Notes under the pieces: generated by a model | The model's input: only the letters and a program-made list of their open reading frames with translations | Database searches by the model: none | What the model was told of the DNA's origin: nothing | Shown: in pieces, positions 1 through 8,844 of the stretch | Position numbering within the stretch: position 1 is the first letter of the stretch | Layout: the number at the start of each line of letters is the position of its first letter | Made by a program: the position numbers and the translations under genes | Assembly (NCBI GenBank): GCA_945870465.1 | Contig: CAMBSS010000169.1 | Location: forward strand, 1 to 8,844 | Direction of reading: 5' to 3' | DNA: 8,844 nucleotides | Source: Bordetella parapertussis | GTDB taxonomy: Bacteria > Pseudomonadota > Gammaproteobacteria > Burkholderiales > SG8-41

Positions 1-100
1 ATTTTAGCGGATAGCTGTCCTGGGTTGCAGAGTTTGCGGTAAACGGAAGCAGGGTAGCTGCTAACGCAAGCACCAGTAAAAAAAAGCGTGTTGAGGTCAT
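1..100 (-). CDS. Bug/TctC-family periplasmic receptor, N-terminus only (cut by window edge)
   Basis: Thirty-three codons are visible before the left edge, beginning with ATG at 100-98. They encode a typical Sec signal peptide: MTSTR, then a hydrophobic core (FFLLVLALAATLLPF), then a probable cleavage site after TANSA. The start of a mature chain follows with SYPLK, which resembles the 'YPxKPIR' opening of Bug receptors. The start lies 12 bases after the cupin stop, and its Shine-Dalgarno (AGGAAG, 109-114) overlaps the cupin TAG. The two genes are therefore almost certainly co-transcribed and probably translationally coupled. The receptor assignment rests on the signal peptide, the short YPLK match and the abundance of Bug genes in the window. 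Another secreted protein is possible. Confidence 0.62.
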   Translation of the reverse strand, partial: MTSTRFFLLVLALAATLLPFTANSATQDSYPLK

Positions 101-112
101 CGGTGTGACTTC

Positions 113-868
113 CTAATCGTCATCTTTCGGGAATTGCATCACCAGAGCCTCGAGTCCTTTATTCCCTGCCCGAATCTCGACCGCGTCTTCGCTTGGTTCG
201 ACAAAAACCATGGACCAGCGAGGCAAGCTTTTGCCCTGGATCTCCAGGTCACCGTTCGCAACGAACAGATAGGTGCCGCCCCCGAGTTTCGGGTCGGGAA
301 CCGTCGTCGACACACGGCCACCAAGCCGGATGAGGTGCGCGCTCATCTCATCCGTGATCTTGGCAGGGTCGTAAACGGGCTCCCATGCTATATCTTGTCT
401 AAACTGAAGCACCGCCTCTGTCGACAACGGGATGTTCGGTGAAACCCAATTCCGGCGCTTGCTCGGTTTTAACTTTTCGCGGAAGCCGGGCTTGCTTAGA
501 TACACCGGGTGCGAATCGCCCGTCCTATTACGAAGCGAAATGAAGGTAAGACCATGCGGGCCGGCCGCGAGCGGGCCGTAGGCACTGTGATGATCCTTAT
601 ACTGGAGCATGAGTGGCCTTACTTCATTTTTGCCGAGCAAGCCTGAGCCCGACGGGAAAATCTGAAATTGCGCCACACCATGGAAGTGCGGAAGAATCGT
701 CTCGTTCGCGCACATCTGCGTCATTAACGACTGCGGGCCGGGGGAAATCTCGGTCGTGCTGTAGCGCGGGCCGAAATAACACGAGCCCCAGTGCTCCATG
801 CCTGTTCCTCTGGAGTTCACAGGCTCCAGGTTGTCGAGTACTTCATTGCCGTCTTTTAAATGGATCAT
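113..868 (-). CDS. Cupin-fold protein of unknown substrate (251 aa)
   Basis: This is a soluble protein with no signal peptide or membrane segment. The first cupin motif is clear at residues 59-76 (LPHFHGVAQFQIFPSGSG), with candidate metal ligands His61 and His63, Gln67 in the usual Glu position, and further histidines at 93, 94 and 105. A second jelly-roll half (about 196-247, GGGTYLFVANGDLEI...) lacks metal-binding histidines, so it looks like a bicupin with one active site. The ATG at 868 is supported by AAGG at 879-882. Its stop overlaps the ribosome site of the next gene, a Bug-type receptor. Repeat copy 1 with an outward promoter lies about 100 bases upstream. Cupins of this sort may be dioxygenases, isomerases or sugar/carboxylate-binding proteins. 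I do not recognise the specific family, so no reaction is assigned. Confidence 0.82.
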   Translation of the reverse strand: MIHLKDGNEVLDNLEPVNSRGTGMEHWGSCYFGPRYSTTEISPGPQSLMTQMCANETILPHFHGVAQFQIFPSGSGLLGKNEVRPLMLQYKDHHSAYGPLAAGPHGLTFISLRNRTGDSHPVYLSKPGFREKLKPSKRRNWVSPNIPLSTEAVLQFRQDIAWEPVYDPAKITDEMSAHLIRLGGRVSTTVPDPKLGGGTYLFVANGDLEIQGKSLPRWSMVFVEPSEDAVEIRAGNKGLEALVMQFPKDDD

Positions 869-1004
869 AAGATGATTTCCTTTTCTAGATATGGCGCGTC
901 ACGCATTTTTCATGGAATGGCGTGTTGCGCTCGAAAGCGGGTGAAGTGGTCGATAAACATCCGCTGCGAATAGGAAATTTAAACGCTTCTTTTGACTGCC
1001 CGCG

Positions 1005-1033
1005 ACTATATCGCCGGCCCAGGAAGCGGTCAA
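1005..1033 (-). promoter_or_regulatory. Sigma70-like promoter in repeat copy 1, directed at the cupin operon
   Basis: On the minus strand there is TTGACC (1033-1028), a 17-base spacer and TATAGT (1010-1005). The spacing is optimal and each hexamer has one mismatch to consensus (TTGACA, TATAAT). Transcription would start near 998 and give a leader of about 130 bases before the cupin ATG at 868. The same architecture, weaker, occurs in copies 2 and 3. No transcript data are available, so activity is inferred. Confidence 0.55.
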
Positions 1034-1108
1034 TCGCGTGGTGTTTGGTGAAAATTCCCCACTCGCGTGATTCTTCGGGCTCTGCATCGAGCCGAGAGGG
1101 CTGAATTC

Positions 1109-1127
1109 GACGCAGTGTGACTGCATC
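1109..1127. other. Hairpin next to the transposase stop in repeat copy 1
   Basis: An inverted repeat has 8-base arms (1109-1116 and 1120-1127, one G-T pair) and a 3-base loop. The first pair abuts the TGA that would end the transposase frame, and the hairpin is identical in copy 3 (8309-8327). No T-run follows, so it is not a standard terminator. It could be a recombination or origin hairpin of the element, or an operator. Confidence 0.4.
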
Positions 1128-1147
1128 ACGCGAGCGCGGGCCGCGCC

Positions 1148-1791
1148 AGATTGTCAGCGCTGTTGCAGAACCGCTCTTGCCATCAGGCAATTCGCACATG
1201 ATCGCCCACACTCACATAAAGAGCCTGCTGGTCTGTTACCACGGGCAGTCGAGTGTATTGTGCGCGCTCGAGATGCGGTCGCGCGTGCGCTGGCAGGACA
1301 TCAGCGAGATCCACGTCGAGTCTTACGGCGCGGCAGTGCGCATGATGGGGAGCGACGCGACGCGCGAAACCGCGGACCACAGCATGCCGTACGTGGTGGC
1401 GAAGGCCTTCATGGACGGAAAGTTGACGTCGAAATCATTCGCGCCGGAGCGCCTCACCGACCCGACGGTGCGGGATCTCATGCACAAGGTGAAGGTCAGC
1501 GAAAGCGCGGAATTGTCTCTGCAGTACCCGGAAGGTGCGCCTGGCCGGCTACGCGTGCGCACCGTATCGGGAGAGGTGCTGGTGGAGGAGGTTCGGTATC
1601 CGAAGGGGCATGCCAGGAATCCGATGAACGATAACGACGTCGAGCAGAAATTCCGCGATATGTTCCAGGCCCACGGGGACGCGCGCCAGTGCGCGGCGGC
1701 CTTGCAGATGCTGCGCAGGTTCGAGCATGTCACGGACGTCAAATCCGGGATGATCGAACTGTTCGCCATTCGATCGGGGGCCGCAGATTAG
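1148..1791 (+). pseudogene. MmgE/PrpD family protein, C-terminal remnant truncated by the repeat
   Basis: About 214 codons remain of a family usually about 450-480 residues long. MmgE/PrpD proteins include 2-methylcitrate dehydratase and related carboxylic-acid dehydratases or isomerases. The frame shows characteristic family features: THIKSLLVCYHGQSS (1204-1248), ETADHSMPYVVA (1366-1401), DPTVRDLMHKVKV, and YPKGHARNPMNDNDVEQKFR near the end (about 1597-1656). The first half, including the N-terminal helical domain, is missing. The homology begins right at the end of repeat copy 1, and the apparent GTG start at 1117 is repeat sequence. The stretch between MMGSD and TRETADHS seems a few residues shorter than in relatives, possibly a second small deletion. 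The TAG stop (1789-1791) overlaps the stop of the convergent Bug gene. It is not expected to make a working enzyme. Confidence 0.8.
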
Positions 1792-2777
1792 TCTTTGAGC
1801 GTGATGTTGGCCTTCTTGACGACGCGTGCCCATTGCTCCATTTCACGCCCGAAGAATGCACCGAACTCGGCAGGGCCCAGGTAGTCAGCTTCCACCCCGC
1901 CGTTGAGAAACATCTTCCGAACTTCATCCAAGGCAAGAATCGCCTTGATTTCCCTGTTGAGCCTGTCGATGATCGGCGATGGCGTATCCGCTGGCGCGAC
2001 GATTCCGTACCAGATGCTCGCCTCGTATCCCTGGAGCGCAGTTTCAGCGATGGTCGGTACCTCGGGCAGGATATCGCTGCGTCTTGCACCGCTGGTGCCC
2101 AGTACCTTGAGCTTTCCGGACCGGATATGTGGCAGCACAGATGAGATCGTGCCCATCATCGCGTGGCTGTGGCCACCAAGCAGATCGATCACTGCGGGAC
2201 CGGCACTCTTGTACTGCACAATCAGGACATCGGTGCTGGCCATCGTATTGAAGAGCAAGGTTGCCATATGCACGATGGAACCGTTGCCAGTGCCCGCAAA
2301 ACTCAGCGCGCCGGGCTTGCGCCTTGCCAGCAAAACGAAATCCTTCGCCGAGCCGGCCGGAACGCTCGGATGGACGACCAGCGCGAGCAGCCCGCTTGCG
2401 AGTTTGGCAATCGGGGAAAACGACTTCACTGGCTCGTAGGGAAGCTTATGCAGTGCCGGCTGGATGCTCTGCGTTGTACTGACGACCAGCAATGTGTATC
2501 CGTCCGCAGCGGCCTTTGCCGTCATCTCCGCGCCGATGATGCCGCCCGCGCCGCCACGGTTGTCGACGACCACCTGTTTGCCGAGACGTCTGGATAGTTC
2601 GGCGGCGACCAGTCGCGCAACTATGTCCACGCTCCCGCCCGGCTGCGTTGGAACGATGACTCGCACCGGGCTGCTCGGGTAAGGCTCCGCCGCCAGGAGG
2701 CCAGTGCAGGCCGCCAGCGATGCAAAGAACGCGAGCATGATTCGCACGGCGTGCAGCGATGGTCTCAAAGTTGGCAT
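1788..2777 (-). CDS. Bug/TctC-family periplasmic solute receptor (TTT system), 329 aa
   Basis: The extracytoplasmic binding protein of a tripartite tricarboxylate transporter, likely capturing a carboxylate in the periplasm. With ATG at 2777 the protein has a basic n-region, a hydrophobic core (IMLAFFASLAAC) and a mature start near EPYPSSPVR. LAAC at residues 21-24 could be a lipobox; cleavage after LLAA is the alternative. Family landmarks are RVIVPTQPGGSVDIVAR (39-55), VVVDNRGGAGGIIGAE (69-84), ADGYTLL (91-97), QYKSAGPAVIDLLGG (188-202) and DRLNREI (271-277). Length is normal. The frame stays open upstream into repeat copy 2, but that part is repeat sequence, so 2777 is preferred; ATG at 2738 is also possible. 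No Shine-Dalgarno is visible within 15 bases of either. It ends tail to tail with the MmgE/PrpD remnant and has no terminator in between. Confidence 0.93.
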   Translation of the reverse strand: MPTLRPSLHAVRIMLAFFASLAACTGLLAAEPYPSSPVRVIVPTQPGGSVDIVARLVAAELSRRLGKQVVVDNRGGAGGIIGAEMTAKAAADGYTLLVVSTTQSIQPALHKLPYEPVKSFSPIAKLASGLLALVVHPSVPAGSAKDFVLLARRKPGALSFAGTGNGSIVHMATLLFNTMASTDVLIVQYKSAGPAVIDLLGGHSHAMMGTISSVLPHIRSGKLKVLGTSGARRSDILPEVPTIAETALQGYEASIWYGIVAPADTPSPIIDRLNREIKAILALDEVRKMFLNGGVEADYLGPAEFGAFFGREMEQWARVVKKANITLKD

Positions 2778-2778
2778 G

Positions 2779-2851
2779 GCGAGTAGGAAATTTAAACGCT
2801 TCTTTTGACTGCCCGCGACTCTATCGCCGGCCCGACCAGCGGTCATTCGCG
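2779..2851 (-). repeat. Repeat copy 2: truncated solo end, 73 bp
   Basis: This copy retains only the fixed-end part of the repeat, equivalent to 966-1038 of copy 1, with about seven differences. It begins one base upstream of the Bug gene's ATG at 2777 and loses homology after 2851, just past the -35 region. The transposase codons and hairpin are absent. Its orientation is the same as copies 1 and 3. Confidence 0.82.
2818..2846 (-). promoter_or_regulatory. Weak promoter-like sequence in repeat copy 2
   Basis: This is the counterpart of the copy 1 promoter: ATGACC (2846-2841), a 17-base spacer, TAGAGT (2823-2818). Both hexamers are a step further from consensus than in copy 1. A start near 2811 would leave a leader of only about 35 bases before ATG 2777. 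Confidence 0.35.
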
Positions 2852-2870
2852 AGCCTTGTCCAATATGGTA

Positions 2871-2891
2871 TGAGCCTGAAGGAGAGGCTCA
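2871..2891. other. Hairpin in the intergenic region upstream of repeat copy 2
   Basis: A perfect 7-base stem (TGAGCCT at 2871-2877 with AGGCTCA at 2885-2891) encloses a 7-base loop. No T-run follows on either strand, so a rho-independent terminator is unlikely. A perfect TATAAT lies just upstream on the minus strand (2917-2912) but has no good -35 at 16-18 bases. The pair may be a leftover native leader of the downstream Bug gene. Confidence 0.35.
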
Positions 2892-2991
2892 CGGGTTTCC
2901 GGCATACTATCATTATAAGATTCCGACCAATTCTCCGTTTGCGGTTTCCCTCTGATCCACCCAATATTTTCTACCAAGATAAGAGATTTTC

Positions 2992-3007
2992 CTGATCAAA
3001 TGATCAG
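2992..3007. promoter_or_regulatory. Operator-like palindrome CTGATCA-AA-TGATCAG
   Basis: Perfect 7-base inverted arms are separated by AA, in the AT-rich intergenic region between the terminator at 3046-3066 and the Bug gene starting at 2777. The size and symmetry suit a dimeric helix-turn-helix regulator such as a GntR or LysR type, but no regulator gene is in the window. It lies about 215 bases from the start codon. Confidence 0.35.
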
Positions 3008-3045
3008 CGCGTCGATCGCTATGGTTCGATTGCCTTTGTGGGGGC

Positions 3046-3066
3046 AAAAACCGAGAGACCTCGGTT
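3046..3066 (-). terminator. Rho-independent terminator of the Bug gene at 3081-4064
   Basis: On the minus strand AACCGAG (3066-3060) pairs perfectly with CTCGGTT (3055-3049) around the loop GTCT. A run of five T residues (3050-3046) overlaps the end of the stem. It starts 14 bases after the stop codon of the gene, as expected for an intrinsic terminator. Confidence 0.8.
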
Positions 3067-3080
3067 GAGCGCACCGCCGC

Positions 3081-4064
3081 TTACTCCACCTTCGCACCTG
3101 AGGCTTTTACCGCGCGCCCCCATTTGACAAGTTCTGACTTCAAGAACGCATCGAAATGTTCGCGCGTGTCGGCGATTGGACTCAAAGCGAGTTCTTGAAT
3201 CCGCTTCTGCAGATCCGAAGTATGAATCGCTTTGGCAACCTCCACGCTCATGCGATCGAGGATCAGCGCGGGCGTGCCCATAGGAGCGACCAACGCCGTC
3301 CACGCCATCATCTCGAAGCCCTGAATACCCTGCTCCTGGAGGGTTGCCACATCCGGCAGGAACGGACTCCGTTTGGCAGTAGTCACCCCGATAGCGCGTA
3401 TCTTGCCCGCCTTCACGTGCGGCAGCACTGTCGGCATGGTTTCCGCCGCAACCGCAATCTGGCCAGCGATCAAATCGGTAATCGCCGGAATCGAGCCCTT
3501 GTAGGGGACATGAGTCATTTTGACGTCGGTCATCGTACTCAGCAGCGCTGGCGCCAGATGCGCCACACTGCCGTTTCCAGACGAGGCAAACGTCAACTCA
3601 CCGGGACGCCCCTTCGCAAGCTTAATGAGGTCGGCAATGTTTTTTGCAGGCAGCGAGGGGTTGACGCAGAAGACCATCGCCATCGCGGTCATGTTCGTTA
3701 CAGGAGCGAAGTCCCGCAGCGTGTCGTAACCCAGTTTACTGTATAGATGCGGATTGATCGCGAGTGCACTTGCGCCTCCCGCGAGAAACGTGTACCCGTC
3801 AGGTGGCGATTTTGCAGCCAACTCCGCGCCGATCATGCTTCCCGCACCAGGCCTGTTGTCTACCAGAATCTGCTGTCCGAAAACGGAGGTTAGCCGCTCC
3901 GCAATCAGACGCGAGATAATGTCAGCCGCTTGCCCGGGCGCGAACGGCACGATGATCCTCACTGGCTTGGCAGGCCACTGCTGACCGTATGCGCCGGCCG
4001 ATATCACCGAGCCTGTCGCCATAAGTGCGAGCGCACTGATTGCAACAGAAGAATTGAACTTCAT
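3081..4064 (-). CDS. Bug/TctC-family periplasmic solute receptor (TTT system), 327 aa
   Basis: A periplasmic receptor with a signal peptide (MKFNSS, core VAISALALMATGSVISAG, likely cut after AYG). The ATG at 4064 is fixed by a strong AAGGAG (4077-4072) seven bases away; the 34 extra codons open upstream lack such support. Family blocks are RIIVPFAPGQAADIISR (36-52), LVDNRPGAGSMIGAELAAKSPPDGYTFL (67-94), THVPYKGSIPAITDLIAGQI (184-203) and a C-terminal KWGRAVKASG (314-323). The usual PGG of the first ligand loop is PGQ here, which may alter the pocket. The gene looks like its own transcription unit: a terminator lies just downstream, and about 300 bases without an intact gene lie upstream. The ligand cannot be told from sequence. 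Confidence 0.95.
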   Translation of the reverse strand: MKFNSSVAISALALMATGSVISAGAYGQQWPAKPVRIIVPFAPGQAADIISRLIAERLTSVFGQQILVDNRPGAGSMIGAELAAKSPPDGYTFLAGGASALAINPHLYSKLGYDTLRDFAPVTNMTAMAMVFCVNPSLPAKNIADLIKLAKGRPGELTFASSGNGSVAHLAPALLSTMTDVKMTHVPYKGSIPAITDLIAGQIAVAAETMPTVLPHVKAGKIRAIGVTTAKRSPFLPDVATLQEQGIQGFEMMAWTALVAPMGTPALILDRMSVEVAKAIHTSDLQKRIQELALSPIADTREHFDAFLKSELVKWGRAVKASGAKVE

Positions 4065-4071
4065 CGTTTCT

Positions 4072-4077
4072 CTCCTT
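4072..4077 (-). promoter_or_regulatory. Shine-Dalgarno AAGGAG deciding the start at 4064
   Basis: AAGGAG lies on the minus strand with a 7-base gap to ATG 4064. It selects this start over the longer reading frame that opens at 4166. Confidence 0.8.
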
Positions 4078-4114
4078 GATATATCTCTGCCGGACCGCGC
4101 CCCACACTCAAGCC

Positions 4115-4306
4115 ACCCTCGCAATGGCGCCAGCGAAGACCGATCCCCTGATTGTCGATCAAACAAACCGAGAAATTGCGTCTATTGTTCAGTCGACCGA
4201 TACAAAGCAATACTTTGTTAATCTGGGAATTGACGAAGTCGACAGTACGGCCGTCCGCCTTTTTTTGAAAAACCAACGAGTGATGCAAATCAATTGGGAA
4301 ACCTAA
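4115..4306 (+). pseudogene. Relic of a Bug/TctC receptor C-terminus
   Basis: Reading on the plus strand, about 60 codons ending in TAA at 4304-4306 resemble the last part of a Bug receptor. DPLIVDQTNREIASIV corresponds to 'aPiVdrLNREI..i'. STDTKQYFVNLGIDEVDST corresponds to '.pevkqrl..lG.e.vgsT', and VRLFLKNQ to 'F.afLk.E'. The preceding 250 or so residues are absent and the terminal KWxxVV motif is lost. It lies head to head with the intact Bug gene at 3081-4064 and fills most of that gene's upstream region. It is therefore probably the decayed end of a formerly rightward Bug gene. A chance frame is possible, but the TNREI block is distinctive. Confidence 0.65.
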
Positions 4307-4363
4307 TTTGTAAGAAATGTATTCTCGTCGGCCAGACCCATGACACGGAAAAATGAACCCGGG

Positions 4364-5368
4364 CTAATCTACGCGAGCACCCGATGCCCTCACCACCTTT
4401 CCCCATTTCAACTGCTCAGCACGCACGAACGCAGCGAATTTTTCACCACCAATACCGGAAGGAATCGCACCTTGTTCAAGCATGCGTTCGCGAACATCGG
4501 GCAATTCAACAATCGCCGCCACTTCCGTGTGCAAGCGCCCCACCACGTCTTTCGGTGTTCCGGCAGGAACGAATATGCCCCACCATCCCGCTGCGTCATA
4601 CCCCTTCTGTCCGCCTTCAGCGACTGTCGGAATCTGCGGCAGCGTTGGAAACCGGGTTTCTCCCGATACGCCGAGCGCCCGCAAGCGACCACTCTGCAAA
4701 TACGGTATAAACACCGGTATGTTCTCAATGTAGACACCGACTTCGCCACCGACAAAGGCCGCTGCCGCCGGGCCGGAACCTTTATAAGGCACATGCGTGA
4801 GCTTAATGCCCGCCAGCAGACCGAAGAGCTCAGTCGAAAGATGAGAAGTAGTGCCGCTACCGGCCGTGGCGTAATTCAATGCACCGGGACGCATCCTTGC
4901 GAGCGCGATCAACTCGCGAACTGACTTAGCCGGCAGCGATGGATGAACAGCAATCATTACCGGGCCAGTGGCGATCAGGGCAACGCCAATAAAGTCGCGA
5001 TTTACGTCGAATGGCAACTTGGCGTAAAGCGACGGATTGATACCGATCGTCCCGGCGCTGCCCATCAGTAGCGTATAGCCGTCGGGCGCGGATTTGGCGA
5101 CATACTCAAATCCAATGATGCCAGCTGCACCCGCCCGGTTTTCGACAACTACCTGCTGCCCCATGCGTTCAGACATTTTTTGGGCCGTGATGCGTGCAAA
5201 GAAATCAAGCACGCCGCCAGCAGGAAATGGTGCGACCAGACGAATCGGCTTCCCGGGATAGCCGGAGGTCGTCTGAGCAAACGTCGGCATCGCTCCTAGC
5301 GCTACTACGAATCCGAAGATGCCTGCGCTGATGGCGGCTGGCATGTGGGGCGGTCTGGTTAAGCTCAA
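4364..5368 (-). CDS. Bug/TctC-family periplasmic solute receptor (TTT system), about 334 aa
   Basis: A secreted receptor with a signal peptide (core AAISAGIFGFVVALG, cleavage near TFAQ). Numbered from TTG 5368, the landmarks are KPIRLVAPFPAGGVLDFFAR (40-59), VVVENRAGAAGIIGFEYVAKSAPDGYTLL (73-101), THVPYKGSGPAAAAFVGGEV (191-210) and KWGKVVRASGARVD at the end. The start is uncertain. TTG at 5368 has GGGAGAAG at 5379-5372 and is preferred; ATG 5395 and ATG 5344 lack a ribosome site. Much longer upstream readings overlap the amidase and are unlikely. The gene begins 83 bases after the amidase stop on the same strand, with no terminator seen between them, so the two may be co-transcribed. That would link uptake with amide hydrolysis. 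Confidence 0.92.
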   Translation of the reverse strand: MSLTRPPHMPAAISAGIFGFVVALGAMPTFAQTTSGYPGKPIRLVAPFPAGGVLDFFARITAQKMSERMGQQVVVENRAGAAGIIGFEYVAKSAPDGYTLLMGSAGTIGINPSLYAKLPFDVNRDFIGVALIATGPVMIAVHPSLPAKSVRELIALARMRPGALNYATAGSGTTSHLSTELFGLLAGIKLTHVPYKGSGPAAAAFVGGEVGVYIENIPVFIPYLQSGRLRALGVSGETRFPTLPQIPTVAEGGQKGYDAAGWWGIFVPAGTPKDVVGRLHTEVAAIVELPDVRERMLEQGAIPSGIGGEKFAAFVRAEQLKWGKVVRASGARVD

Positions 5369-5371
5369 ATT

Positions 5372-5379
5372 CTTCTCCC
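5372..5379 (-). promoter_or_regulatory. Shine-Dalgarno GGGAGAAG supporting a TTG start at 5368
   Basis: A purine-rich ribosome site lies 3 bases from TTG 5368 (core GGGAG about 6 bases away). The ATG candidates at 5395 and 5344 have no comparable sequence. Confidence 0.5.
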
Positions 5380-5451
5380 GGCAATTGAAGTGCATGGTTG
5401 TTGAAGCGTGACGCCGTCTTTCTAGTGCGGTCTGCAACGACGCGAGTAATG

Positions 5452-6849
5452 TTATGCAACTGGGGGGTGGCGCGTGATCCAGCCGGCCGCGTCTTCGTAG
5501 GCCGCCGCCACCTGATACACCACATCCTCGCACCAGTTGTCAGCGGCGATTTGCAACCCCAGCGGCATGCCTCCCGCATCGAATCCCATCTGCTGCACCA
5601 ACGCGGGATATCCGGAAAGGTTATACATACGATGCGCCGAGCCTCGTATCACCAGCGGATCAGCCATCAATGCCTTCATCGTAGATGCACTGGATTCACG
5701 ACCCGGCGAAATAATGACATCAACCTGCGCACCGAAAACCCGTGCGTAGGCCTCGTAGAGACGCGCGCGCTTGGCTTGTGCAGCTTGGTAGTCGCGCTCT
5801 GTGTAATTCGCCGCGACCAGGACACGATCGCGGAACGCTTTGCCAAACTTCTCGGGATGTGCGGCAAGTTTACTCCGGTGATACTGATACGCTTCGTAAG
5901 TCAGGATGAGCGTGCCGTAGTCATTAACCTCACCCAATCCAGGAATGTCGATTGCATGCAGTGTGGCGCCAAGCCCGCGCAGCACTTCAATTGCCGCTGC
6001 AAAGGCTGTCAGCACCTCCGGCGCGTGCATCACGCTATCGATAAATGTTTGGGGGATACCCACGCGCATGCCTTTCAGGCTCGTTCCAATCAATCTGGAA
6101 AAGTCCGGCACGGGCCGCTGCACCGAGGTCGGATCTTTGGGGTCATAGCCCGCCATCTCCTGGAGCATCATGGCGTTGTCGCGAACGGTGCGCGTCATTG
6201 GTCCCGCATGATCCAGCGTGGGGGCAAGCGGCAACACACCGCAGGTGGACACGCGGCCGTAGGTAGCCTTCATACCGACAATTCCGCACACGGCGGCCGG
6301 ATGCCGGATCGATCCGCCGGTATCGGTACCTATCGCCCCCATCGCCAGTCCGGCAGCCACTGCTGCGCCAGAGCCACTGCTGGAACTACCTGGTGCGCGT
6401 TCGGTGTTCCATGGATTGCGCGCAGCAGGAAATGCTTCGTCCGCGCCAGGCACGCCGTAAGCAAACTCGTGAAGAGAGGTCTTGCCAAGTGATACCGCAC
6501 CGGCATCCGTTAGCTTCGCGTAAACCGTCGCATCCTGCGTCGGAATCCAGTCGACGAGCAGCTTAGAATGCGCGGTGGTGCGCACGCCCTTTGTGCAAAC
6601 GATATCTTTAAACGCAAGCGGGATGCCGTGCATCGGCCCCTTGTAATTGCCCTTAAGAATCTCGCTTTCCGCCGCGCGCGCCTGCGCGAGCGCTGCGTCT
6701 GCAGTGACCGTGATGTAGCTATGGAGCCTTGGCTCGAGGGCTTCGATGCGAGCCAAGTGTAGACGCGTGAGTTCGACCGGCGAGAGTTCCCGGCTTTGAA
6801 TTAATTTCGCTGACTGGGCGATCGTGAGGTAGTGCATATCATCTGCCAT
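5452..6849 (-). CDS. Amidase-signature family hydrolase, 465 aa
   Basis: A cytoplasmic hydrolase of the amidase-signature family, which includes GatA-like proteins and many catabolic amidases. It would cleave a carboxamide to carboxylate and ammonia. The Ser-cisSer-Lys triad can be placed: Lys81 in IPLAFKDIV, cis-Ser156 in the Ser/Gly loop APGSSSSGSGAAVAAG (152-167), and nucleophile Ser180 in GTDTGGSIRHPAA (174-186). The Ser/Gly loop is usually GGSSGG and reads GSSSSGSG here, a mild deviation. Full family length, no signal peptide. ATG 6849 has AAAGG at 6861-6857. The C-terminal region (GYPALVQQMGFDAGGMPLGLQIA) is typical. It is not a clear GatA: no gatB or gatC is nearby. It lies between two Bug receptor genes on one strand, which suggests a role in catabolism of an imported compound. 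The substrate is unknown. Confidence 0.95.
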   Translation of the reverse strand: MADDMHYLTIAQSAKLIQSRELSPVELTRLHLARIEALEPRLHSYITVTADAALAQARAAESEILKGNYKGPMHGIPLAFKDIVCTKGVRTTAHSKLLVDWIPTQDATVYAKLTDAGAVSLGKTSLHEFAYGVPGADEAFPAARNPWNTERAPGSSSSGSGAAVAAGLAMGAIGTDTGGSIRHPAAVCGIVGMKATYGRVSTCGVLPLAPTLDHAGPMTRTVRDNAMMLQEMAGYDPKDPTSVQRPVPDFSRLIGTSLKGMRVGIPQTFIDSVMHAPEVLTAFAAAIEVLRGLGATLHAIDIPGLGEVNDYGTLILTYEAYQYHRSKLAAHPEKFGKAFRDRVLVAANYTERDYQAAQAKRARLYEAYARVFGAQVDVIISPGRESSASTMKALMADPLVIRGSAHRMYNLSGYPALVQQMGFDAGGMPLGLQIAADNWCEDVVYQVAAAYEDAAGWITRHPPVA

Positions 6850-7055
6850 TCGTATGCCTTTCGGTTTTAGTTATGTTCACGCCGATTAGAATTTGATCAG
6901 TTTCGGCAGGTTATACCGATCTGCGATTGACCACCATCGGGACTCTATCGTCACTGGCCAATACGTAATCGGCACGGGGTGGTCAATTTGGCGACGGCGG
7001 GAACAAGCATGCACGCCGCAGCGTCAATCTTCATGCAAACGCGAACGGGGCGAGC

Positions 7056-8042
7056 TCACGATTCTGGCTTCATGCCCGCCTTGCGCGCGACTTCGGTCCA
7101 CCTGACGACTTCGCTTTGCACGAACGCCGCAAATTCGGCGGGCGGGGTGCCGACGGCTTCGGCGCCTTCGCGCTGGAAGCGCTCGCGTATATTGGGCAGC
7201 GCCATCACGCGCACGTACTCGCGATAAAGCGCGTCGACGATCGCCGGCGGTGTTTTGGCCGGCGCCCAGATGCCGTACCAGTGCGGAATGTCGATGCCTT
7301 TGACGCCGGATTCATCGAGTGTCGGCGCGTCCGGAAAAACCGCGCTGCGCTTGATGGTCGAGACCGCGAGCGCGCGCAGCTTGCCGGCTTCCACGTGCGG
7401 CCGTATCACCAGCGGCACGATGAACGCATAGGCCGCCTCGCCGGAAATCAGCGCGGTCGTCGCGGGTGCTGCGCCGCGATACGGCACGTGGATGCTGCGG
7501 ATGCCGGCCACCTGCTGAAAGAGTTCGCCGACGACGTGCGAAATCGAACCCAGCCCCGTCGAGGCGAACACCAGTTCGCCCGGGCGCCGCTTGGCGAGCG
7601 CCAGAAATTCGCGCACGTTCCTGACCGGCAGCGCGGGCGGCACGACGAGCACGTTGGGGATGCGCACGATCTGCGTGACGGGCGTGAGATCGCGCACCAC
7701 GTCGTAGCCGAGTTTCGCGTAGAGGGGCCGGCTCGTGATCATGCTTGCGGTGTGGACCATGATCATATGGCCGTCCGGCGCGGCGCGCGCAACCGCCTCG
7801 GCGGCGATATGGCCGCTAGCGCCCGAGCGGTTTTCGACGATGACCGGCTGGCCGAAAGTTTTCGTCATCTCGACCGCCATCACGCGCATCAGCACGTCGG
7901 TGCCGCCGCCCGGCGCGAATCCATCCACCACGACGATCGGCCGCGAGGGCCAATCCGCGGCGCGTGCCGGGGCGCCAATGACCACGCAGGCGGCAGCAAG
8001 CGCGAGCACGCCGGCGCGGCGCGCACGAATTGTTTTGATCAT
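7056..8042 (-). CDS. Bug/TctC-family periplasmic solute receptor (TTT system), 328 aa
   Basis: A periplasmic receptor with a strongly basic n-region (MIKTIRARR), core GVLALAAACVVIGA and signal peptidase site PARA before ADWP. Landmarks are RPIVVVDGFAPGGGTDVLMR (34-53), VIVENRSGASGHIAAEAVARAAPDGHMI (67-94), HVPYRGAAPATTALISGE (185-202) and PAEFAAFVQSEVVRW (301-315). ATG 8042 has GAGGAG at 8057-8052, nine bases away; the upstream 15 codons are not supported. Base composition is visibly richer in G and C than the other Bug genes (41 of 60 bases in 7561-7620 against 35 of 60 in 4921-4980), suggesting a different origin. Repeat copy 3 with an outward promoter lies about 125 bases upstream. The amidase follows 206 bases downstream; that gap holds no gene and no terminator that I can see. 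Confidence 0.95.
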   Translation of the reverse strand: MIKTIRARRAGVLALAAACVVIGAPARAADWPSRPIVVVDGFAPGGGTDVLMRVMAVEMTKTFGQPVIVENRSGASGHIAAEAVARAAPDGHMIMVHTASMITSRPLYAKLGYDVVRDLTPVTQIVRIPNVLVVPPALPVRNVREFLALAKRRPGELVFASTGLGSISHVVGELFQQVAGIRSIHVPYRGAAPATTALISGEAAYAFIVPLVIRPHVEAGKLRALAVSTIKRSAVFPDAPTLDESGVKGIDIPHWYGIWAPAKTPPAIVDALYREYVRVMALPNIRERFQREGAEAVGTPPAEFAAFVQSEVVRWTEVARKAGMKPES

Positions 8043-8205
8043 TACGACATGCTCCTCGCAGTAAGGTGGCGATCGTTCGCTACGCAATCAGCGGCACGGG
8101 CCGGACTTGATGGCATCGCCGAAGCAGCGCCCGGCAAAAACACAGTATAAATGCCCGGTCGGGGATGCGAATAGAAAATTTCAACGCTTCTTTTGACTGT
8201 CCGCA

Positions 8206-8233
8206 ACTCTATCGCGGCCCAGCAAGCGTTCAA
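8206..8233 (-). promoter_or_regulatory. Promoter-like sequence in repeat copy 3
   Basis: On the minus strand there is TTGAAC (8233-8228), a 16-base spacer and TAGAGT (8211-8206). It is weaker than copy 1 and would give a leader of about 155 bases to ATG 8042. A separate TATACT (8149-8144) lies nearer the gene but has no convincing -35. Confidence 0.4.
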
Positions 8234-8308
8234 TCGCGCGGTGTTTGGTGCAAATTCCCCACTCGCGTGATTCTTCGGGCGCTGCATCGACCCGAGATGG
8301 CTGAGTTC

Positions 8309-8327
8309 GACGCAGTGTGACTGCATC
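8309..8327. other. Hairpin next to the transposase stop in repeat copy 3
   Basis: This is the same 8-base stem and 3-base loop as at 1109-1127, without a single change in arms or loop although flanking bases differ. It overlaps the transposase TGA (8328-8326). Confidence 0.4.
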
Positions 8328-8469
8328 ACGCGCGCGCGGGCCGCGCCGGTGAGCGCGGCGGCGCGCGCGCAGGCAAGACCAGATGCGTGAGGATCTTGAC
8401 CATCACCGCAGGCGCTTCGATGGTGGCGATGATCTTCAACTCGCCGTCACACTGCTGGCAGCATGAAAA
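8326..8469 (-). pseudogene. IS91-type transposase, C-terminal remnant
   Basis: About 47 codons ending at TGA 8328-8326 contain a CxxC pair (CQQC) followed by DGELKIIATIEAPAVM, KILTHL and PARAPPRSPARP. This matches what I know of the C-terminal tail of IS91-family Y2 transposases ('C..CGG.lkiia.ie.p.vi.kIL.HLgLp.rappr.Par'). The catalytic HUH and double-tyrosine regions are missing, and upstream of about 8469 the frame no longer resembles the family. The final codons are shared with repeat copy 1, which ties the repeat to this element. The identification is from remembered motifs, not a search. Confidence 0.65.
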
Positions 8470-8502
8470 CGGTCGAGCGGTAAGACATAGGGAGCGAAAT
8501 GT

Positions 8503-8655
8503 ATGAATGCAAGACCTCACCACCGGCACTCCATAGTACACTGGGCGCATCACGTCAAAGTACCGCTCGATGAGACGTTATTGAATTACATGAATAAGCT
8601 GTCAGAACGCCCTGCCCTAGCCCGCGCCAGAAAACGTGAAGCCGCGGCTATTTAA
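8503..8655 (+). pseudogene. Possible glutathione S-transferase C-terminal fragment (50 codons)
   Basis: A plus-strand frame from ATG 8503 to TAA 8655 ends with VPLDETLLNYMNKLSERPALARARKREAAA. This resembles the end of bacterial glutathione S-transferases, where a final helix reads like 'yl.rl.aRPA..RA...E'. HSIVHWAHHV before it may match the preceding helix. The thioredoxin-like N-terminal domain and most of the helical domain are absent, so it would not be functional. It lies next to the transposase remnant, consistent with a gene cut by the element. It could also be an unrelated small frame. Confidence 0.4.
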
Positions 8656-8749
8656 GGAAAACCAGTTAAGGAAACAAGAGGCGAACGATAAAGACCTCGT
8701 GGCGTTTGAAGCCGCCAACCGAATAGAAAATTTTAGAGCCACCCACGGC

Positions 8750-8844
8750 ATGAACTCCCCTGCTCCTCATGAAGTACAAGCCCCCGCGCTGACCGACCTG
8801 CTCGCGCGCTTCGTCCACACGCTGGACCTGGCCGCCGTCCCCGC
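8750..8844 (+). CDS. MmgE/PrpD family protein, N-terminus only (runs off the window)
   Basis: ATG 8750 opens a frame that stays open to the edge (31 codons). LTDLLARFVHTLDLAAVP fits the first helix of MmgE/PrpD proteins ('LArFv..l.f.dlPaev'). The codons are GC-rich, like a real gene of this host. No strong Shine-Dalgarno precedes the ATG. It is rightward, opposite to the Bug genes, and is a second MmgE/PrpD locus besides the remnant at 1148-1791. The call rests on a short match. Confidence 0.55.
   Translation, partial: MNSPAPHEVQAPALTDLLARFVHTLDLAAVP

Follow-up and report, generated by a model that had tools for sequence, protein, structure and literature searches.

Three repeat copies and the genes beside them

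The stretch analysed here, which we call the window, comprises 8,844 nucleotides from an assembly assigned to Bordetella parapertussis (GCA_945870465.1, contig CAMBSS010000169.1, positions 1 to 8,844). It contains three copies of one repeat, all on the minus strand, in the same orientation and terminating in TATTCGC or TACTCGC. An earlier sequence-only reading had described the same three copies with one shared end, and repeat searches and alignments bear this out: a 17-mer common to the copies gave three exact matches, against 0.03 expected at up to three mismatches. Moreover, a 70-position model of the end recovered copy 1, copy 2 and copy 3 with E = 2.3e-22, 4.8e-20 and 6.5e-17, respectively, all three being among its 47 training rows. 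We hold with high confidence that each copy is the oriIS (3′) end of a rolling-circle element of the ISCR/IS91 type.

Copy 1 occupies positions 966 to ~1178 on the minus strand. Its oriIS terminus, GCGTTTAAATTTCCTATTCGC, lies at 966..986, and a promoter-like motif, TTGACC-17-TATAGT, at 1005..1033 (minus strand) reads outward across that terminus. Similarity between copies 1 and 3 stops at 1147 and 8347 because copy 3 is missing ~76 bases that relatives keep; in alignment these bases are present in L008, L156 and L074, whilst L158 is also short by a few there. Copy 1 itself continues to ~1178, a position that in relatives falls ~9 bases past the transposase stop codon, and there meets a truncated prpD gene whose first half is gone beside the break. 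Therefore, copy 1 contains no transposase codons, as judged from the repeat, the alignments, a prpD relative and the end model, and the previous description of it as halting at 1147, seven codons into the transposase, was wrong.

Copy 2 (2779..2851, minus strand) is the shortest, and the repeat, alignment and model leave it with the promoter-like ATGACC-17-TAGAGT, the oriIS and little else. Its break lies just outside the -35-like hexamer, in agreement with the earlier observation that it stops after the -35 region. Copy 3 (8167..~8467, minus strand) consists of the oriIS end with TTGAAC-16-TAGAGT, the ~76-base internal deletion and ~41 C-terminal transposase residues, the 41 alignable residues corresponding to 439-479 of 486. 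The ~47 codons formerly counted here are close to that figure, but the end formerly placed at 8347 lies at ~8467, the internal deletion having been missed.

All three copies are directed at the start of a gene (at 868, ~2778 and 8042). The gene facing copy 1 by its start (113..868, minus strand; 97 bases apart) has no Pfam match and has relatives in the family at 69-74% DNA identity. On the other side of copy 1, the prpD fragment (1178..1791, plus strand) retains only the C-terminal MmgE_PrpD domain. A relative in G432 is full length, with 455 aa and both MmgE_PrpD domains; the window sequence aligns with it from about codon 245 onward, the first ~245 codons being absent. A TctC-family receptor gene (1788..2778, minus strand) has a likely ATG directly next to the copy 2 terminus; this start at 2778 is our choice, the gene finder having picked 2846, within the repeat. 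A second TctC-family receptor gene (7056..8042, minus strand) faces copy 3 by its start at a distance of 124 bases. The closest relatives found for the window are four genomes (G430, G435, G436 and G438) of the family of G001, the genome of locus L001, at 82-84% DNA identity over about 900-1000 bases of this gene. No empty site was recovered, the fetched loci of these four genomes sharing no window DNA beyond the gene itself, and the end model had no match in 18 loci carrying relatives of the window's own genes.

The parent element

The transposase remnant in copy 3 matches the ISCR clade Ia profile weakly (E 0.0081). Locus L238 of genome G439 encodes an intact transposase of 486 aa with matches to Y2_Tnp (2.5e-33) and Zn_Tnp_IS91 (7.6e-20), followed 3′ of the gene by GCGTTTAAATTTCCTATTCGC as its oriIS terminus, and copy 1 matches this region at 74%. 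The IS91-like identity first proposed from the sequence alone is thereby corroborated, and the search suggested with it, for a full-length element with an intact Y2 transposase and this same end, has yielded one. A second open transposase with a related end was found at L067 (genome G017). Its product is 51% identical over 96% to IS91-family transposases of plasmids, some annotated ISVsa3, the parent element forming a separate branch from these. Both relative transposases match the NCBIfam model for ISCR clade Ia (NF052416) with 491 and 507 bits; these scores are under the curated cut-off of 925 and thus place the element as the same kind on a separate branch.

At two further loci (L084 and L085) transposase genes are followed by GCGTTTGAACTTCCTATACG, which we take to be the published ISCR oriIS; a third (L087) has a one-base variant, and the form GCGTTTGAACTTCCTATAC is also present beside the transposases in L084 and L085. 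At the opposite end, L238 and L272 have a common start ~35-40 bases ahead of the transposase ATG, and 16 other loci that include the start of the transposase gene have nothing clear in common upstream.

We also searched for the end in other replicons. The repeat end had no match in plasmids or phages, the right part of copy 3 had none in plasmids and the window-type end pattern had none in viral contigs. The pattern of the relative's end was found in one viral contig (L093), as a motif match only, without the promoter block. Scanning genomes with the end pattern returned two matches, L001 and L002, of which L001 is genuine. The L002 match (4556-4582) was rejected as a repeat end, since in this Nitrosomonas genome it falls within a gene of the UbiA family and is a coincidence.

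A sharp terminus and a conserved promoter-like motif

Of 150 records (matches listed, shared loci included), 122 allowed the ori motif to be located. Following CTAT, C stands at the second base in 104 of the 122 and at the fourth in 111, and conservation is partial at the first and third; from the fifth base on the sequence is near random, with a mild preference for C at the fifth. The fixed end is therefore exact and general across the 122 ends, and the conserved last bases could be either terminus or preferred target. Its proposed role as the transposon terminus thus stands, with a sharp end in 122 of the 150 records.

Inside this terminus, the block GATTGACCGCTTG-CGGGCCGGCGATATAGT is conserved in 47 aligned ends, is directed outward and ends 39 bases inside the terminus. 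The motif of copy 1 has 10 of 12 matches to the sigma-70 consensus and is the stronger of the window's two sigma-70-like sites. Shuffled windows contain a mean of 3.4 sites of the scanned kind each, so a hit in the promoter scan proves nothing by itself. The hexamers of copies 2 and 3 are weak, and copy 1 alone among the copies passes the scan. We infer that in each of the three window copies the motif may act as an outward promoter kept by selection.

Two further sites were observed. The second sigma-70-like match in the window (8144-8171, minus strand; TTCGCA-16-TATACT) spans the junction between copy 3 and its flank, as in a hybrid promoter, and chance matches are expected. A solo end of ~34 bases in G294:C179 (L157, ~4903-4936) has an oriIS without the promoter motif and faces the end of a gene.

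Orientation of solo ends relative to gene starts

The orientation test was conceived after the hydrolase locus described below had been seen, and relied on a small codon-based gene finder of our own; copies whose promoter has been lost are also more readily missed by the search. The first set derives from at least 73 matches, 72 of which were used (a 31-base match away from the end, in G403:C7, was omitted); with the three window copies and L157 it comprises 76 records, 50 solo and 26 joined to a transposase. With the 70-position model, 399 genomes of the order were scanned, and 24 of them together yielded at least 88 places. The 55 outside the family were all used; of those inside it, 19 were new and were used, 12 repeated places of the first set, and G132:C77 and G132:C36 were left out. 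Scoring took the best 10 candidates of each genome for the first set and the best 12 for the model set, and counts are thus lower bounds. Where shared loci were excluded, 8 places and the window were removed. Ratios leave out ends inside a gene or without a gene call.

Among the matches listed, the ori side of solo ends in the 76 records faced 43 gene starts and 5 gene ends, compared with 21:23 on the other side and 13:9 for joined ends. The 17 new solo ends inside the family (matches listed) gave 14:3 on the ori side and 6:7 on the other. Outside the family, the 39 solo ends listed gave 30:7 vs 21:12 (Fisher 0.12), and the 16 joined ends listed gave 10:6 (Fisher 0.18 vs solo ends). When the matches listed were pooled, without shared loci and the window, the ori side of solo ends stood at 79:14 and their opposite side at 44:37 (Fisher 1e-5; 31:4 when paired), whilst joined ends faced gene starts at 23:15 (Fisher 0.005 vs solo ends). 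Restricting the listed matches to strong ones left 38:9 vs 20:21 on the other side (Fisher 0.003), and strong matches outside the family showed no bias (6:5). The bias thus stands out clearly within the family of the window but is not established beyond it, where the contrast is weak. Solo ends outside the family that lack a recognisable -35 (model match from position 8 or later) faced 6 starts and 2 ends, or 6:3 with L157, too few to decide. Distance to the gene start was considered as evidence and rejected, as joined ends lie equally near (median 98 vs 123 bases).

These figures bear on plain neutral decay, under which solo ends would be random leftovers and the bias would come from insertion or tolerance upstream of genes. 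Such decay is consistent with the lean of joined ends towards gene starts and their equal nearness, with the unbiased strong matches outside the family and with the many transposase remnants that lack either end. However, it does not predict the contrasts seen here between solo and joined ends and between the two sides of solo ends, and with the breakpoints and the hydrolase locus (below) also taken into account we regard it as unlikely.

As a separate observation, TctC-like receptor genes, recognised by a sequence motif, are enriched just downstream of solo ends (13/71, vs 10/195 among other genes at the same loci; Fisher 0.002).

Breakpoints and the origin of truncated ends

The count of break positions retains shared loci and the window copies. 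Among the matches listed, 33 of 102 solo ends have their estimated break 31-54 bases from the end of the -10, and 6 of 102 have it within the 24 bases that follow; joined ends, which control for lost similarity, gave 1/42 in each of the two intervals (matches listed). Breaks therefore cluster just outside the -35, which neutral decay does not account for. Breaks inside the promoter occur in 5 of 102 solo ends; we rejected their scarcity as evidence, since ends broken in the promoter are harder to find.

A constant end with variable truncation had initially been read as a possible product of one-ended or aborted rolling-circle transposition, which would start at oriIS and stop within the element, making each solo end its own short product. 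There is precedent for this in IS801 of Pseudomonas syringae, likewise of the IS91 family with a fixed ori side and a variable other side (PMC3189936, PMC6354349): right-end fragments of 229, 360 and 679 nt accounted for about one in four trapped insertions, and the one-ended fragments terminate at GAAC-like tetranucleotides (PMC3189936). Moreover, the ori flanks of the three window copies differ, as for separate insertions, and copy 1 begins with CAAG, an IS801 end tetranucleotide, which counts against retention of the ends as promoters. However, whereas the one-ended origin of IS801 fragments was demonstrated experimentally together with set tetranucleotides (PMC3189936, PMC6354349), window-type ends have no such excess: of 85 solo ends, 6 have GAAC or CAAG no more than 7 bases from the estimated break, vs 33 of 340 control windows, although this branch may follow another target rule than IS801. 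A wider set (GAAC, CAAG, GGAC, CGAC, GCAC) gave 17/85 vs 82/340. The break of copy 1 also coincides with the loss of half of prpD, a further point against one-ended transposition. The transposase fragments counted in the family (E <= 1e-40, fragments at contig ends included) number 59. The N end is reached by 13 of them and the C end by 18, with 3 reaching both; the two ends do not differ significantly, and there is no significant ori-side excess. That 31 of the 59 extend to neither end likewise speaks against one-ended transposition. The IS801 study itself attributes most genomic fragments to reorganisations (PMC3189936).

The hydrolase locus suggests a history for one such end. Searched for at E <= 1e-80, a hydrolase gene with BD-FAE and alpha/beta hydrolase matches is present in 7 of the 74 genomes of the family, and the repeat end lies just upstream of it in 6 of the 7. 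In four genomes (G350, G458, G407 and G426) the terminus is at the identical place, 25 bases ahead of the hydrolase ATG; it is decayed in G456, whilst in G404 the oriIS is gone with the -35 and -10 still there. The far side differs: G350 and G458 retain longer stretches, G407 and G404 have other neighbours, and in G426 the element is cut directly before the -35, beside the apparent end of a TctC gene. The seventh genome, G429, has no end, and by eye its hydrolase gene follows close behind another reading frame. Thus, in 6 of 7 genomes the promoter motif has been kept ahead of the gene as the remainder of the element decays, and its persistence in G404 beyond the oriIS is a second point against neutral decay. 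The simplest reading of these alignments would be a single ancestral junction and subsequent erosion that went no further than the promoter.

Separate one-ended events would not be expected to leave a single junction with a variety of far breaks, and with a single junction and later erosion the pattern of fixed end and variable truncation arises without one-ended transposition. Taken together, the prpD loss at copy 1, the shared hydrolase junction, the tetranucleotide counts and the transposase fragments do not support one-ended transposition as the main cause, and we consider it quite improbable. Independent deletions, already recognised as the plainer alternative, fit better, given the half-lost prpD and the common hydrolase junction with its differing far breaks. 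The truncated ends are likely the result of deletion and decay and not of one-ended transposition.

Proposed retention of the ends as promoters, and known systems

We propose that the three repeats are eroded ISCR ori ends that have been retained as promoters, to which we assign a probability of roughly 0.6. On this proposal an ISCR-clade (IS91-type) rolling-circle element would once have inserted upstream of host genes, and deletion and decay after insertion would have stripped the transposase side to varying extents. The ori-proximal 45-80 bases would tend to persist because of an outward sigma-70-like promoter able to transcribe the next gene. Sequence comparison itself shows the identity of the element, its sharp common terminus, the conserved promoter-like motif, the orientation bias in the family and the pattern at the hydrolase locus. 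Retention as promoters is likely in the window's family and is unproven for each window copy. The promoter in the ori end is what the sequence-only reading lacked, and may explain why this end is kept.

More tentatively, as a proposition with a little less than an even chance of holding, solo ISCR ori ends may serve across this betaproteobacterial family as dispersed, domesticated promoters. The element would seed them, the transposase side would decay and selection would keep the 45-80-base end upstream of host genes, often TctC genes, at some loci after the oriIS has been lost.

Mobile promoters, in which promoter sequences spread between genes, have been described in prokaryotes. The present case shares the idea of spreading promoters; the difference is that here the parent element and its terminus are identified. 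The closest parallel is ISCR1, an IS91-type element whose oriIS end contains outward POUT promoters that raise expression of the next gene (PMC6218425), as predicted for the window ends. Its hexamers (TAAACG-N17-TAAGAT and TTCGGA-N18-TTTATA) differ from those in the window, and the POUT promoters were described for ISCR1 next to integrons and resistance genes rather than for solo ends by ordinary chromosomal genes (PMC6218425). No report of solo ISCR ends kept as promoters was found in the literature searched, most subscription papers being outside its reach. ISCR outward promoters are already known from resistance regions. If the proposal holds and eroded ends also serve ordinary chromosomal genes, rolling-circle elements would keep supplying the chromosome with new promoters over the long term, and a fixed end with variable truncation need not mean one-ended transposition.

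Lastly, several minor features of related loci were recorded. Sequences of the CTGTATATAATACCAG type upstream of the transposase start at four loci (L242, L246, L247 and L249) resemble the CTGT-N8-ACAG LexA box described upstream of ISCR transposase genes (PMC13393415). At L008, a short repeat with TCAAAGGGG-type ends (~5611-5735 and ~5930-6070) splits the transposase remnant and by eye appears to be an unrelated miniature element. The same locus (G001:C425) and L245 (G442:C86) have identical sequence for 50 bases after the ori end, and this copy is therefore common to the two genomes by descent or transfer.
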